From an uncultured Pseudomonadota bacterium (lineage in GTDB: Bacteria; Pseudomonadota; Alphaproteobacteria; RUG11792): a stretch of DNA of 35,011 nt. The notes beneath the pieces were generated by a model. The model saw only the letters and a list, made by a program, of their open reading frames with translations, ran no database searches and was not told the DNA's origin. Positions 19,050 through 34,573 of this stretch are shown in pieces; within the stretch, counting starts at the first letter, position 1, and each line of letters starts with the position of its first letter. The stretch lies in assembly GCA_902769055.1 (NCBI GenBank), contig CACXNL010000012.1:1-35011 (forward strand), in the 5' to 3' direction. A program made the translations under genes and the position numbers.

Positions 19050-20618
19050 TTAAAACCTAAAACCAAAACCTACCTTAATGACATTCGCCCTCACCCTCGA
19101 AGTCCACCATCGATTAAATTCTAACTTGGCATACATCTTTGGTGAAATATCATACCTGATACCAGCACCAACAATCGGAGAAGTCTTCTTCCCGTGGCGG
19201 ATACCTGCCGCAACGTAAAGTCCAACATCCTTCGTCAGCATAAGCCCAACTTTCGGCATTGCAACATAATAAAAACCGCTACATTGTTCCACTTTGCCAA
19301 TCATTCCGCCAACAATGACATTAGCACCGATCAACAACTTACTATTCCGACAAGCAAGAGCGTATTCAATCTCGGCAACCGGCTTCGCCTTCCGCTTCGA
19401 TACTGGAATGTTTGAAGCAATCGGCGCCGCAGGCACCTCTTCTTCAGGAGTACCCTCTCGCCTCCTCGATAATTCCTCCTCCAATTCCCCCAGTTTAGAT
19501 CGCAAGCGAAGCAACTTATCCGCAGCGGCGCTTTCTCTCCTCTCTGCGCCAGAGCTACGTTCTCGCAATCCGTCAATCTTATTGACTAGTTCTCGTATTT
19601 TCCCATCTAGTGCACCCAACTCGCGCGATACAGCAGGAGCTAGTTGCTGCGCTTCACGCAGGCGACTCATTACGCCAGCCAAATTACGCGCACAAGTAGC
19701 ACGCACCACCCTAGCTTGGTTTGCCTTATTTCTAGAATCTACAAATGCCCCACTCATTCCGCTATACAAACTGTCCTCCGCAGTAAGAGAACTGAGGTAA
19801 CCTACAGCAGCATTACGAGCATTCAAAGCAAGCTGGGGGTTGAAAATTTGACCTACAGCAGTTGGAAGCCCCTGCCTTAGAGCCCGAAAAGAATTGCGCA
19901 CACTTGCGGCAAGAGCCTCATCCCCCGGAGCCCATATGGGATAATGTCCCCTAACTTTATCAACATCCACCATACGCGCCTCTAGTGCGTCTAACCGCGC
20001 CCCAAGAGCGTTAGCCAAACCAAGATTTACTTGCATGCCATGATACTGCACAAGCTCACACAAACCCACAACTTCCCGGGCAACCTCACCAATGGTTGTT
20101 CGTACCCTGAGGGTCACAGGAAGTTGGTTCGGTTGTTGCAGCGGTATGTTAATCGCACCCTGATTACAAATGACCGCAGCCCTGTAGACATCATCATGAA
20201 CCTTACTCTTCTCTTCGGCATCCATGTCCGCATTCCGGTAAGCCGTGTTAGCATTAGCTAACTCTCCTTGAAGGTTACCCGGAAGCTGAAGCTGAGCGAT
20301 GCGCTGGGCTCTATCTTGTTCAGCCTGTCTTTTTTCATCCTCAGCCTGGGCTTTCTCTCGTTCAGCCTGTCTTTTTTCATCCTCAGCCTGGGCTTTCTCT
20401 CGTTCATACTGCGCAATCTCCTCTTCCAACTTTCGCTTCTTTTCCTCTTTGGACTCCTTCTTTTCTTCCTCCGACTGAACATCCTTGATCTCTTTCACTT
20501 TGTGAAACGCAACACCAACATTGATGCCGATTGACTGATCCAGCATCCACCCCCGGCTCATTTCCGAAGCTAATGTAACCGGAACCAGCAAAAAAACACT
20601 CGAATACTTAACAAACAT
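19050..20618 (-). CDS. Outer-membrane beta-barrel protein with a large coiled-coil insertion (522 aa)
   Basis: I do not recognise the exact family. A signal peptide covers about residues 1-18. One beta-strand follows (SIGINVGVAF, about 29-38). Residues 42-120 are a highly charged coiled coil, and 120-400 are mostly helical with a second coil near 345-400. Residues 413-522 have alternating strand pattern and glycines, include VGAGIRYDISPKMYAKLEF, and end in VGFGFRF with a C-terminal Phe, the signal read by the BAM complex. This suggests a small barrel whose helical bundle sits in the first surface loop. A perfect 42-bp duplication lies in the first coil. An A10 run ends in the ribosome site AAAGGTGTGGT ahead of the ATG. 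The likely role is surface display or adhesion, by inference. Confidence 0.78.
   Translation of the reverse strand: MFVKYSSVFLLVPVTLASEMSRGWMLDQSIGINVGVAFHKVKEIKDVQSEEEKKESKEEKKRKLEEEIAQYEREKAQAEDEKRQAEREKAQAEDEKRQAEQDRAQRIAQLQLPGNLQGELANANTAYRNADMDAEEKSKVHDDVYRAAVICNQGAINIPLQQPNQLPVTLRVRTTIGEVAREVVGLCELVQYHGMQVNLGLANALGARLDALEARMVDVDKVRGHYPIWAPGDEALAASVRNSFRALRQGLPTAVGQIFNPQLALNARNAAVGYLSSLTAEDSLYSGMSGAFVDSRNKANQARVVRATCARNLAGVMSRLREAQQLAPAVSRELGALDGKIRELVNKIDGLRERSSGAERRESAAADKLLRLRSKLGELEEELSRRREGTPEEEVPAAPIASNIPVSKRKAKPVAEIEYALACRNSKLLIGANVIVGGMIGKVEQCSGFYYVAMPKVGLMLTKDVGLYVAAGIRHGKKTSPIVGAGIRYDISPKMYAKLEFNRWWTSRVRANVIKVGFGFRF
20321..20404 (-). repeat. Perfect 42-bp tandem duplication in the coiled coil
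   Basis: Two identical 42-base copies (20321-20362 and 20363-20404) each encode 14 residues, two heptads, of the charged coil containing AQAEDEKRQAE. A diverged partial copy adjoins at 20304-20320. Changes in copy number would lengthen or shorten the coil without shifting the frame. Confidence 0.9.
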
Positions 20619-20691
20619 ACCACACCTTTTTTTTTTAAATTTGAAAAATAAAACGATTTTCCATAACTACAGAAAAAATGAAAAATCAGTG

Positions 20692-20700
20692 TTTATACCA
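20692..20700 (-). promoter_or_regulatory. Predicted extended -10 promoter for the outer-membrane barrel/coil protein
   Basis: The minus strand reads TGGTATAAA, with GTGTGA 17 bases upstream as a poor -35. The leader would be about 67 bases, longer than for other genes here. Confidence 0.4.
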
Positions 20701-20812
20701 CCGCATGTAGTAATTCACACCCGGAACTACCGCACCCGATCATTGCCGAATAAACATCAAGTTTCGCAACTATTGTTTTTCCAAATAAAGGCAATGTATT
20801 TCATAAGTATAG

Positions 20813-20825
20813 CCCCCCCCCCCCC
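20813..20825. repeat. Homopolymeric C13 tract
   Basis: Thirteen consecutive C (G13 on the minus strand) in otherwise AT-rich intergenic DNA, about 195 bases upstream of the outer-membrane protein start and about 115 bases upstream of its predicted -10. Confidence 0.95.
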
Positions 20826-20873
20826 GAAAGGCGTTTTACTAGAAATATTCATTATTTCCTCCTGTAAATACCA

Positions 20874-20903
20874 TACAACTAACCCTAATACAACTAACCC
20901 TAA
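20874..20903 (+). repeat. 15-bp perfect tandem repeat (two copies)
   Basis: TACAACTAACCCTAA occurs twice in direct succession (20874-20888 and 20889-20903) in the gap between the outer-membrane gene and lptC. Confidence 0.9.
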
Positions 20904-21033
20904 ACTCAGTGTTATTTTATTGCATTATTTTGCAAAACGCAACATCTTTTTTAAGAAAAAAAAGCGTTACGTTAAAAATTTTGCAAACTCTGCATTTTTC
21001 ACAATAGGAATTTACAGAAAAGCTAGTGGGATA

Positions 21034-21042
21034 TGGTACAAT
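21034..21042 (+). promoter_or_regulatory. Predicted lptC-lptA extended -10 promoter
   Basis: TGGTACAAT (TG-n-TACAAT). The expected start near 21049 lies about 27 bases before the lptC ATG. Confidence 0.55.
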
Positions 21043-21075
21043 GATGCAGAGTGAAATTACAATGAATATTTAACG

Positions 21076-21594
21076 ATGTTCAAATTTATTAGGTTATCGA
21101 TAACAATAATATTTTTTACATTGGCGGGATATTACTTTGTTCAAGCTGAGGACGGCAAAAAGGTAACAAAAGAAGTGAAATCAGAAAAAAAGAACATCGT
21201 AAAGAAAGTAAGCTATAAACGCAGATTTAATGGCGGAATATTGCTTTTAACGGCAAATGAGGTCATCCAAAAAACAAAAGAAAACTTGCTCCTCTCGGAA
21301 ATTAAGGCAAGTTTTGACAAGAAAGGAAAAAATGTAACTATAGAAAGCGGAAAATGCGATCTGAGGATGAATGAAAAAAAGGCATATTTAAGAAGTAACG
21401 TGATAATAAAATCAGCAGACGCAACATGTTGCACTGAGAGCGCAGTCGTAGATTTCTCGGCGCACACCATCTTTGGAAACTCCAAGGTAACCGGCGTGAA
21501 CGCCAGGGGTAGCTTCATTTCGAACGGATTTTCCATAGACAAAGATGGCGTTATAGAGTTAAAAAGCGTTGAAATAAAAGGGAAGAAGAAATGA
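21076..21594 (+). CDS. lptC: LPS export periplasmic protein LptC
   Basis: Inner-membrane-anchored bridge protein that takes lipopolysaccharide from LptBFG and passes it to LptA. An N-terminal transmembrane anchor (about 5-24) is followed by a basic linker and a beta-rich LptC/OstA-like domain. The repeating pattern LRSNVIIKSADATCCTESAVVDFSAHTIFGNSKVTGV and GSFISNGFSIDKDG is typical of the family. The length of 172 aa is near normal. The stop overlaps the next start (ATGA, 21591-21594), and the next gene is LptA-like, which supports the call. lptB is not present after lptA. Confidence 0.82.
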   Translation: MFKFIRLSITIIFFTLAGYYFVQAEDGKKVTKEVKSEKKNIVKKVSYKRRFNGGILLLTANEVIQKTKENLLLSEIKASFDKKGKNVTIESGKCDLRMNEKKAYLRSNVIIKSADATCCTESAVVDFSAHTIFGNSKVTGVNARGSFISNGFSIDKDGVIELKSVEIKGKKK

Positions 21595-31298: not shown

Positions 31299-32510
31299 TC
31301 ACTTATATATCTCCATTTCTAACAAATTATTGTTTCGAAGAAGTTTTAGTGATATTGCATTGCTACCAATGGAATATTTTTCAAGCCGTCGAAATGTGTC
31401 TTCGTCAGTAACTAATTTATTGTTGAACTTCAGAATTACATCGCCGGGACGAATTCCAGCATTATCCGCAAGCGATTTTAGTGCGACAGACTTTACTACG
31501 GCGCCCAAGTGCTTTATCCCTTTTGGGATTTTGAGAAGTTTTTCCAGATTTTTAGTAATTTTGACATTCCTCTTGTCATCAAATTCAATACCTAGAGATC
31601 CCCCATCTCCAAATTTTATAATGCCCGGAATCGCAATACGTGCTGCCTTTTTAATAACCGACACCGGAATTGCTGTTTGGTTTGTATTGCCTATGAAATC
31701 GATGGTGGGCGCTGCAATTCCGATGAGCTTACCATCCATATCGAGGATGGCACCTCCCGCCGTTTCCGCAATAATCGCCGGATTTGTTACTGGATTTTCT
31801 GCAACCAAAACATCATTTCCATTTTCTTTCTGGTATTTCAGGCGCTCTATGCCGGTCGCGAATAAAGAAAAATTGTTTGTCCTATTTGCTGATTTTAAAG
31901 CATTAACAAAATTTTCACCTTTAGCCTTACCGATAACTACCGCGCTATTCAAAAGTATTCTATCTTTACCATTTATAAATGGTGCATCGTTCCCGAGTTT
32001 GACATACGGGAAGTTGCATTTTTTATCTGACTTTATTCTAAAAAAAGCCAAATTTAAGTTTGGAATAGCTTTTATAAGTTCCGCTTTATAATCGTTGTTC
32101 CCAAGCGTAATTTTGTTGTTGTCCACCTGGGGACGCATTTCACTATTAACGGAAATCACAAAATTATCAGCATTCATTACTCCGGAATAAGTTGTACATA
32201 CTATTCCGCCTGAAGAAATAAGAATACCTGAAATAACTCCTATTCTGTAATGGTGTTTCTTCAGTCGCTGTCTCACTGACGAATTGTATATAAATCCGTC
32301 ATCGTCGGCTTCATTACTTATTGTATATATCAAAACGACTGCGCTGGCGCAATCGCGGATGACTGTTTTAATTCCGTTTATTTCAAATTTATCGATTTGT
32401 TCTTTTTGTTTTTTCGCCAACTCGGATTTTGTTACGACATTATACGCCGCGCACGAATACGTAAGCGATGCGGCGCAACATGTCAACAAAAACCGCTGCA
32501 AAACCATCAT
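31299..32510 (-). CDS. HtrA/DegP-like protein with PDZ domain and no catalytic triad (predicted pseudoprotease)
   Basis: An exported trypsin-fold protein of 403 aa. A signal peptide covers about residues 1-22. The protease-like domain (about 45-290) aligns with HtrA proteins at SGILISSGGIVCTTY, NLNLAFFRI and AGGAILDMDGKLIGIAAP. The His position is Tyr108, the Asp position is Asn153 and the Ser position is Ala251 (ETAGGA in place of GNSGG), so proteolysis should be impossible. One PDZ domain follows (about 302-403, with GAVVKSV and AGIRPGDVILKFNN). The ATG overlaps the tssC stop by four bases, so it is coupled to the type VI sheath genes. A scaffold, chaperone or substrate-binding role in the periplasm is inferred. 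Confidence 0.87.
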   Translation of the reverse strand: MMVLQRFLLTCCAASLTYSCAAYNVVTKSELAKKQKEQIDKFEINGIKTVIRDCASAVVLIYTISNEADDDGFIYNSSVRQRLKKHHYRIGVISGILISSGGIVCTTYSGVMNADNFVISVNSEMRPQVDNNKITLGNNDYKAELIKAIPNLNLAFFRIKSDKKCNFPYVKLGNDAPFINGKDRILLNSAVVIGKAKGENFVNALKSANRTNNFSLFATGIERLKYQKENGNDVLVAENPVTNPAIIAETAGGAILDMDGKLIGIAAPTIDFIGNTNQTAIPVSVIKKAARIAIPGIIKFGDGGSLGIEFDDKRNVKITKNLEKLLKIPKGIKHLGAVVKSVALKSLADNAGIRPGDVILKFNNKLVTDEDTFRRLEKYSIGSNAISLKLLRNNNLLEMEIYK

Positions 32511-33973
32511 CCAGCTCTTGCAGGAAGCGTCGCAACTAGCCGTATCGAAGCGGTCAGTTCCTCCATCTGGAAGTGCGGACGCAGGTATATGACAGACTTA
32601 TACGCCCCCGGCGAGCCCGGAACATCGTAAACATCTATCCTCCCTTCTCGAAGTGGGTACGCCGCCTTTATCGAAGCTGGCGCATCATCATTCAGGAGGA
32701 TGTACGACGAAAGCCAAGTGTTTAGGTAATTCTCGACATTTTCCTTAGTCAAGAAGGCTCCAATTTTGTCTCGCATCAAAACTTTGATGTAGTGCGCAAA
32801 TCGAGATGCCGCCAATATATAAGTTATCCTTGCCGACAGTGAGGCATTGGCGTTCGCATCGTCCAGGTTGTATACCTTCGGTTTTTGCGTTGTCTGTCCT
32901 CCGAAAAACACAGCGTAATCGGTGCCTTTGCAGTAGCACGCTGCGATAAATCCAAGGTCGCTCAGCTCTTTTTCCCGGCGGTCAGTTATCGCAACTTCAG
33001 TCGGACACTTGACTGTTTTGTCACCTTCAAGGGTTTTGAAAACATACGTCGGAAGCCCCTCGATTACTCCTCCGCCCTCAACTCCTCGAATAGCGGCAGT
33101 CCAGCTGTATTTCGCAAAAGCGTCAGTTATCCTTTGTCCGAGCGCATACGCCGGATTTCCCCAGCAGAAGCGGTCGGTATCTCCAACTCCGACATCCTCT
33201 TTGAAGTTAAATTCCGCAACTGGCAACGTATTTGGTCCATACGGCAATCTCATTAAAATTCTCGGAAGTAGCAGCGCAACATACCTAGAATCCTCGGTGT
33301 TTCTGAAGGAATTCCACTTGATGTAATCAGGCGATTCAAAAATCTTCGCCAAATCCCTCGGAAGCGGCATATCTTCAAATTTGTCCAAATTGAAAAACAG
33401 CGATGAAACAGCCGAAATAAATGGGGTATGCGCCATCGCTGCCAAGCCCGAGATATGTTCCAAAAGCTGGATATCCTGAGGGTGATTTGTAAACTCAAAA
33501 TCCCCAATCAAGCACGAATATGGTGAACCACCGAAAGTGCCGTATTCCTCCTCGTAAATCTTCTTGAATAAAGCGCTCTGGTCAAACTCGATAGCTTTCG
33601 TCAAATCGTCCCGAATGTCTTTCATCGACGCATTCATAAGACGAATTTTCAGCCTCGTACTGGTCTCGGTATTCATCACAAAATAGTAAAGCCCACGCCA
33701 CGACCCTTCGAGCTTCTGGAAATTCGGATTATGCAGTATCTCGTTGATTTGCGCAGTCAAAAGCTCATCAATCTCCGCAATCCTTCGCGTCAAAAACGCA
33801 ACGATGCCGGATTCCTGTGGCGCCTCTTTCAAATCCTGAAGTTCATTGACAAGCTCAGCCAGCAAGTCAACAGCGTTGTCCTCTTGCTCAGGGTACCTCG
33901 CCATTTTCCTTTCGTGAAGCAGTATATCGAGGAGTTTTGCTTCATCTGGTATTATGATTACTTCGTCCGCCAT
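32507..33973 (-). CDS. tssC: Type VI secretion contractile sheath large subunit TssC (VipB)
   Basis: Large sheath protein that, with TssB, forms the contractile tube around Hcp. At 488 aa it has the usual length. Family blocks are FQKLEGSWRGLYYFV (about 86-100), LIGDFEFTNHPQDI, PFISAVSSLFFNL, RYVALLLPRILMRLPYG, FCWGNPAYALGQRI, LPTYVF and, near the C-terminus, YILAASRFAHYIKVLMRDKIG. A good ribosome site (AAAGGAGATG) precedes the ATG, 21 bases after tssB. tssB-tssC is the conserved type VI order; the next type VI genes (hcp, tssE, tssF) do not follow, and the HtrA-like gene takes their place. Confidence 0.96.
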   Translation of the reverse strand: MADEVIIIPDEAKLLDILLHERKMARYPEQEDNAVDLLAELVNELQDLKEAPQESGIVAFLTRRIAEIDELLTAQINEILHNPNFQKLEGSWRGLYYFVMNTETSTRLKIRLMNASMKDIRDDLTKAIEFDQSALFKKIYEEEYGTFGGSPYSCLIGDFEFTNHPQDIQLLEHISGLAAMAHTPFISAVSSLFFNLDKFEDMPLPRDLAKIFESPDYIKWNSFRNTEDSRYVALLLPRILMRLPYGPNTLPVAEFNFKEDVGVGDTDRFCWGNPAYALGQRITDAFAKYSWTAAIRGVEGGGVIEGLPTYVFKTLEGDKTVKCPTEVAITDRREKELSDLGFIAACYCKGTDYAVFFGGQTTQKPKVYNLDDANANASLSARITYILAASRFAHYIKVLMRDKIGAFLTKENVENYLNTWLSSYILLNDDAPASIKAAYPLREGRIDVYDVPGSPGAYKSVIYLRPHFQMEELTASIRLVATLPARAG

Positions 33974-33994
33974 TTTTACATCTCCTTTCCATAA

Positions 33995-34573
33995 CTACTT
34001 AGCCTCCTCCGGCTTTGCCCCTTCCGACTTTTCGGTCTCAGGGGAACCTTCACCCTCAGGTTTTGGTCTTTCCGCCAACTTCGCCTCTACTTCAGTTTTT
34101 AACTTTTGCAAATTATCGTTATTTTTCATTATTTGTGTTAGGATAGCCTCCAACGCATCATTCCCATCCATTTTTGTTATCAAGTTTTTGAGATTGTTTC
34201 GTTTTTGATAGAGAGCAGCCAAGGCGGGGATATTTTTTGCCAAGTTCTGAGGTTCGAAATCAGACATATTCTTGAACATCAACTCGACGCTTATTTCGGG
34301 ATTATCGTCAGATAGCTTATTTGCGACACGAATGACCAATCTCGGATGTATGACTGCCATTACATCCATAAAGTTGTCCCTATCTATCTCGACAAATTTG
34401 CGATTTTTTATGGGAGGGAGTGGATTTTCAGGATTTCCAGATAAATCAGCCAAAACTCCGACAACAAACGGTAATTCCTTCTTTTCAATGGCATCACCAA
34501 TCTCCACATCATAGGTAATCTGCACCCTAGGCTTTCTCACTCTATCAAGGGTATGTTGTCTGCTCTCCGCCAT
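33995..34573 (-). CDS. tssB: Type VI secretion contractile sheath small subunit TssB (VipA)
   Basis: Small sheath protein that interlocks with TssC and carries the site recognised by the recycling ATPase ClpV in many systems. RVQITYDVEIGDAIEKKELPF (17-37) and VGVLADLSGNPE are diagnostic, followed by FVEIDRDNFMDVM and FKNMSDFEPQNLAK. Residues 1-165 are the family domain. The tail (about 166-192) is Pro/Glu/Lys-rich, probably disordered, and longer than in many homologues. It is the first gene of the operon in this window. I found no convincing promoter upstream. Confidence 0.95.
   Translation of the reverse strand: MAESRQHTLDRVRKPRVQITYDVEIGDAIEKKELPFVVGVLADLSGNPENPLPPIKNRKFVEIDRDNFMDVMAVIHPRLVIRVANKLSDDNPEISVELMFKNMSDFEPQNLAKNIPALAALYQKRNNLKNLITKMDGNDALEAILTQIMKNNDNLQKLKTEVEAKLAERPKPEGEGSPETEKSEGAKPEEAK

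Follow-up and report, generated by a model that had tools for sequence, protein, structure and literature searches.

A poly-G tract in a genome of a rumen alphaproteobacterial lineage as a probable relic of a phase-variable gene start

Poly-C tracts are found in the fim promoters of Bordetella. As in that system, the locus described here has a homopolymer beside a -10-like hexamer, which is close to how an earlier note on this DNA had read it; unlike in Bordetella, the hexamer here falls within coding sequence that is conserved. Frame-shift phase variation through 5' poly-G tracts, with length variation shown, is described for Helicobacter canadensis in the relevant passages of PMC2823697. For Neisseria, passages of PMC3639595 describe translational phase variation of lgtG through a poly-G tract, again with length variation shown, and transcriptional phase variation of porA, in which 11 G lie between the -35 and -10 elements.

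Like the H. canadensis and lgtG tracts as those passages present them, the tract that we analysed lies in a reading frame, of a kind in which full-length translation would depend on the tract length modulo 3. In the rumen gene family to which we relate it, the G tract is close to the start codon, as in the H. canadensis cases described. Unlike either system as described there, the arrangement is that of a single family, with the tract between the start codon and the signal peptide; its host belongs to a reduced-genome rumen alphaproteobacterial lineage and the copy considered here is apparently truncated. The likeness to porA, as given in the same passages, concerns other tracts of this genome, which lie in TTGACA promoter spacers. 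Unlike porA, our tract has no -35 box, has no minus-strand promoter in our scan and does not lie between two promoter hexamers.

The tract and the start site around it

The window (the whole stretch of 35,011 nucleotides analysed) contains a run of exactly 13 C at positions 20813-20825, which is G13 on the minus strand, with a G on either side. Among the other C or G runs of the window, the longest has 6 bases. Under a first-order Markov model, the expected number of runs of at least 13 is 5e-5 for C and 1e-5 for G (about 6e-5 together), which puts the tract far beyond chance; the earlier note had likewise called it highly unlikely by chance. Our own assembly, G000 (807,469 bases in 20 contigs, 76% complete), holds 35 C or G runs of at least 8 bases, against about 3.8 expected from the window rates scaled to the genome. 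The tract lies, as that note also had it, between a surface protein gene and its divergent neighbour lptC. The former (19050-20618, minus strand) encodes a secreted protein of 522 amino acids with a barrel-like C-terminus and a Pfam OMP_b-brl match below the family cut-off; the latter (21076-21594, plus strand) has a Pfam LptC match above the cut-off. The longest A or T run in the window, T10 (A10 on the gene strand) at 20627-20636, immediately precedes the surface gene's ribosome site, and tssC and tssB, which encode a type VI secretion sheath, lie at 32507-34573 (Pfam VipB and T6SS_VipA).

Read on the minus strand, the tract follows a strong ribosome-binding site and start codon, GGAGGAAATAATG (20850-20862), with the ATG at 20852-20850, 27 nt before G13. 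The order is CAGGAGGAAATAATG, eight codons, G13 and CTATACTTATGA, and the letters directly after G13 on this strand, which is that of the surface gene, are CTATACTTA. A GGAGG-N4-9-ATG arrangement is unremarkable by itself (the window has 4, against 3.1 expected), and what counts is its placement before the tract. At the present length of G13, the frame runs for 31 codons to a TGA (20757-20852). When the tract was set to lengths from G9 to G18, the frame closed after 15 to 32 codons, so a long gene is not opened at any of them; the three frames after the tract extend for 4, 14 and 18 codons. Just upstream of this start lies a perfect 15-base tandem repeat, ATACAACTAACCCTA, in two copies (20873-20902).

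A secreted-protein family with a G run behind the start codon

When the intergenic region was used as a DNA query, the sister genomes returned sites with a G tract that proved, when read out, to be gene starts; the best E value was 3e-5, to which the G run itself contributed. The sister genomes are the goat-rumen MAG RGIG3458 (G001) and RUG11852, RUG14374 and RUG14192 (G002-G004), which we take from their names to be rumen MAGs; the collections searched hold one genome per species. The family layout is the same as that at the window tract: a ribosome site, an ATG, about eight codons, a G run, CTA-TAC-TTA and a signal peptide, which we judged by eye, without a predictor. The 5' end reads ATG TTA AAT AAA AAG TGT TTA TTC Gn CTA TAC TTA GCT AAT ACT..., followed by the signal peptide and a conserved body. 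A relocated copy of the intergenic region was also considered and rejected, as the 457 intergenic bases searched yielded just these family 5' ends and weak matches.

Searching 35 genomes of the taxonomic family with the family alignment (A1) gave matches in eight: 3 in our own genome, 46 in G001, 36 in G002, 41 in G003, 25 in G004, 21 in G008, 9 in G018 and 1 in G015. This secreted-protein family with a 5' G run, with 25-46 matches per sister genome, is undescribed. Pfam gave no match above cut-off for four members, nor for the member L188, and NCBIfam gave one weak match among ten members. L188 has a PHROGs match whose function is not annotated (E 1e-4), and its AlphaFold model (mean pLDDT 70.7, pTM 0.67) had no match in the PDB at E <= 0.001.

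The motif GGGGG-CTAKRYTTA (GGGGGCTAKRYTTA) occurs at 27 sites in five genomes of the genus, and its reverse at none in the same five. The window tract is the single site in our own genome. All 26 sister sites lead into the family body with positive HMM scores, including low ones at several sites cut by contig ends (for example, 5.4 at L264 and 8.8 at L253). At 24 of the 26, the best body match starts right after the tract in the frame CTA-TAC-TTA; the other two, L263 and L265, are frame-shifted, broken members that retain the body. The window site alone has no family body after the tract (HMM score -1.0).

Tract lengths and reading frames suggest that the family itself is translationally phase variable. 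We assessed 62 loci, comprising those whose match reaches the 5' end and two members from our own genome, with an ATG preceded by a Shine-Dalgarno (SD) sequence as the preferred start; 61 matched the profile and one (L237) did not. The start was in frame in only about a third of the loci with runs of at least 8 (8/26), compared with 14 of the 18 with runs of 5-7 (Fisher p 0.005); the remaining 17 had no run of at least 5 near the match. A laxer rule, accepting any ATG or GTG, weakened the statistic (13/26 long tracts in frame versus 27/35 others, p 0.03). At 23 of the 26 sister sites, each of the two wrong frames reaches a stop no more than five codons past the tract (L247, L252 and L255 are the exceptions), and near-identical 5' ends in G003 carry runs from G6 to G17. 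The phase distribution and the early wrong-frame stops support what would be a tight translational switch in the relatives.

The window tract shares part of this anatomy. Its distance of 27 nt from SD-ATG to G run falls within the range usual for the family (mostly 24-33), and the run is followed by CTAKRYTTA. With the G run excluded, the 36-nt downstream flank (20777-20812) scores best against the family profile of the 69,950 positions in the window; the margin is small (11.8 versus 10.8 for an unrelated runner-up) and the score is far under the family median of 38.9. That profile was built from 28 sister loci with runs of at least 6, picked by us from the 61, with own-genome loci left out. 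The 14-nt upstream flank fits the family poorly: its score of -11.2 is reached by 19,981 of 69,994 positions, and it shares with the family only the final TTC. Among the 35 tracts of our own genome, the window tract (0.6) groups with the true family members L066 (3.7) and L070 (-3.7); the next scores -23.3.

What follows the tract is different. The family frame meets a TGA at once after CTA TAC TTA (20801-20812), four codons past the tract, and no family body follows in any frame. Nor did a search of all six frames of the whole window, reading through stops, find a body; its best score (3.8) fell in lptC. With the family frame closed and the signal peptide and body no longer open, we read the window copy as a relic and not as a family member; tract length would decide full-length translation in the relatives and does not do so here.

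We therefore think it likely that the window tract once served as the slippage switch of a gene under translational phase variation, and that this gene was later truncated. On an intact family member, a ribosome would start at the ATG and translate some eight codons before it passes through the G run. A run length correct modulo 3 would keep the frame CTA-TAC-TTA, allowing the signal peptide and the secreted protein to be made, and other lengths would lead to a stop within a few codons. What is left in the window is a start site with its tract and, behind them, roughly a dozen degenerate codons of the signal peptide; the body is absent, presumably through truncation. Slippage at the tract now would alter only a peptide of 15-32 codons, presumably with no effect on the surface gene. 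By itself, the window tract is probably a dead switch in a dead copy, of an ordinary mechanistic class. The earlier note's proposal of slippage and phase variation holds as to class, the tract being one of the poly-G tracts of this genus that look phase variable; its target and mode were probably mistaken, the tract lying at the coding start of a truncated gene.

Control of the surface gene and other readings

That note had placed the tract upstream of the surface gene as a candidate switch of its expression; that the tract tunes transcription of this gene through spacing or DNA shape is a reading that we consider unlikely. The tract is on the correct side, 195 nt upstream of the ATG of the surface gene, and the TATAAA taken as the -10 element is indeed present at 20697-20692, about 115 bases away. 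A TATACT hexamer begins one base past G13, promoter-spacer poly-G tracts occur elsewhere in this genome and, by analogy, poly-C or poly-G tracts tune surface genes in some pathogens. However, no TTGACA-like box lies at a usable distance before TATACT, a consensus promoter scan of 20560-21130 found no promoter on the minus strand, which is that of the surface gene, and family members use CTATACTT as coding sequence. All four sister genomes have homologues of the surface gene, and the fetched loci contain no C or G run of at least 7 near any of them (4/4). With neither runs at the homologues nor a minus-strand promoter, we have no positive evidence that the tract serves the surface gene, a role that we consider conceivable but unlikely. 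A promoter shared with lptC was also considered and rejected, since conservation is lacking upstream of lptC: another ORF lies there in G001 and, in G002 and G004, a gene that we take from its translation to be valS.

Leader control, in which translation from the relic start would yield a peptide whose length alters the stability or termination of an mRNA continuing into the surface gene, seems to us improbable. It would draw on the strong SD-ATG, on the strand shared with the surface gene and on three different short frames, with peptides of about 15-18, 26-28 or 30-32 codons depending on tract length. Against it, the frame at the present tract length stops 138 nt short of the surface ATG (20757 versus 20618), a distance too great for translational coupling. 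The surface gene also carries an SD-like AAGGTG of its own, and a terminator-like hairpin (20703-20687) lies in between on the same strand.

We give very little credence to a role of the tract within a plus-strand gene or in the service of lptC: a TTG-initiated ORF of 137 amino acids (20641-21054) is open through the tract, but its start has no visible ribosome site, it has no Pfam or PHROGs match, the minus-strand homology accounts better for the sequence and lptC starts 251 nt away. An assembly or sequencing artefact is equally hard to credit, for while one own-genome tract (C4:38507) runs into an N gap and some relatives have C or G runs at contig ends, the window tract lies mid-contig with specific flanks common to independently assembled genomes, and only its exact length is doubtful.

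Other tracts and a possible phase-variation repertoire

A second type of tract occurs in our own genome, where TTGAC[A/G] shortly precedes a G run of at least 7 at 12 sites; a further such match lies at the end of contig C6. Two of the 12 (L051 and L245) have neither a -10 element nor a gene. The other ten are promoter-like and lie on contigs C3, C4 and C14 (L056, L058, L059, L063, L064, L065, L079, L241, L242 and L243), with spacer runs of G7-G11 except at L242, where G23 runs into an N gap. In the nine with a readable 3' side, a TAGAAT/GANAAT-type hexamer stands at a spacer of 14-18 in eight (the -10 of L065 is poor), and all nine have an ORF with a signal-peptide-like start within 40 nt. 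The spacer pattern gave 20 overlapping matches in G000, none when reversed in that genome and none in G001-G004.

On a reading that we would neither favour nor discount, the genus has a large phase-variation repertoire with two modes: one is the family, switched by the G run that separates start and signal peptide, the other a set of about ten secreted-protein genes with poly-G spacer promoters in the species of the window. The window tract would then be a fossil from the former set, stranded when the species moved to the latter. Our literature search found no report of poly-G phase variation in this rumen genus and no papers naming the four sister MAGs; 'phase vari' is likewise absent from the searched text of a review on a neighbouring topic, the Holosporales (PMC11909080). 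More than the tract itself, the interesting part is the wider repertoire to which it leads, which looks like a large, stochastically varied surface and secretome set in an uncultured rumen lineage with small genomes. If real, it may let these bacteria vary what they display to the animal, to phages or to protists that host or graze on them.

Further runs were seen in passing. Long C runs stand at contig starts in relatives (C8, C24 and C29 of G017, and other contig ends); they are perhaps assembly or base-calling artefacts and call for caution in tract counts. Two related genes of our own genome (L061 and L062, on C3 at about 89.9 and 91.9 kb) carry G10 mid-gene, and both are frame-shifted at the run. 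The DUF285 repeat protein of L080 (C14:7930) has a G9 tract close to its start, and L052, L068 and L073 resemble L080 by eye.
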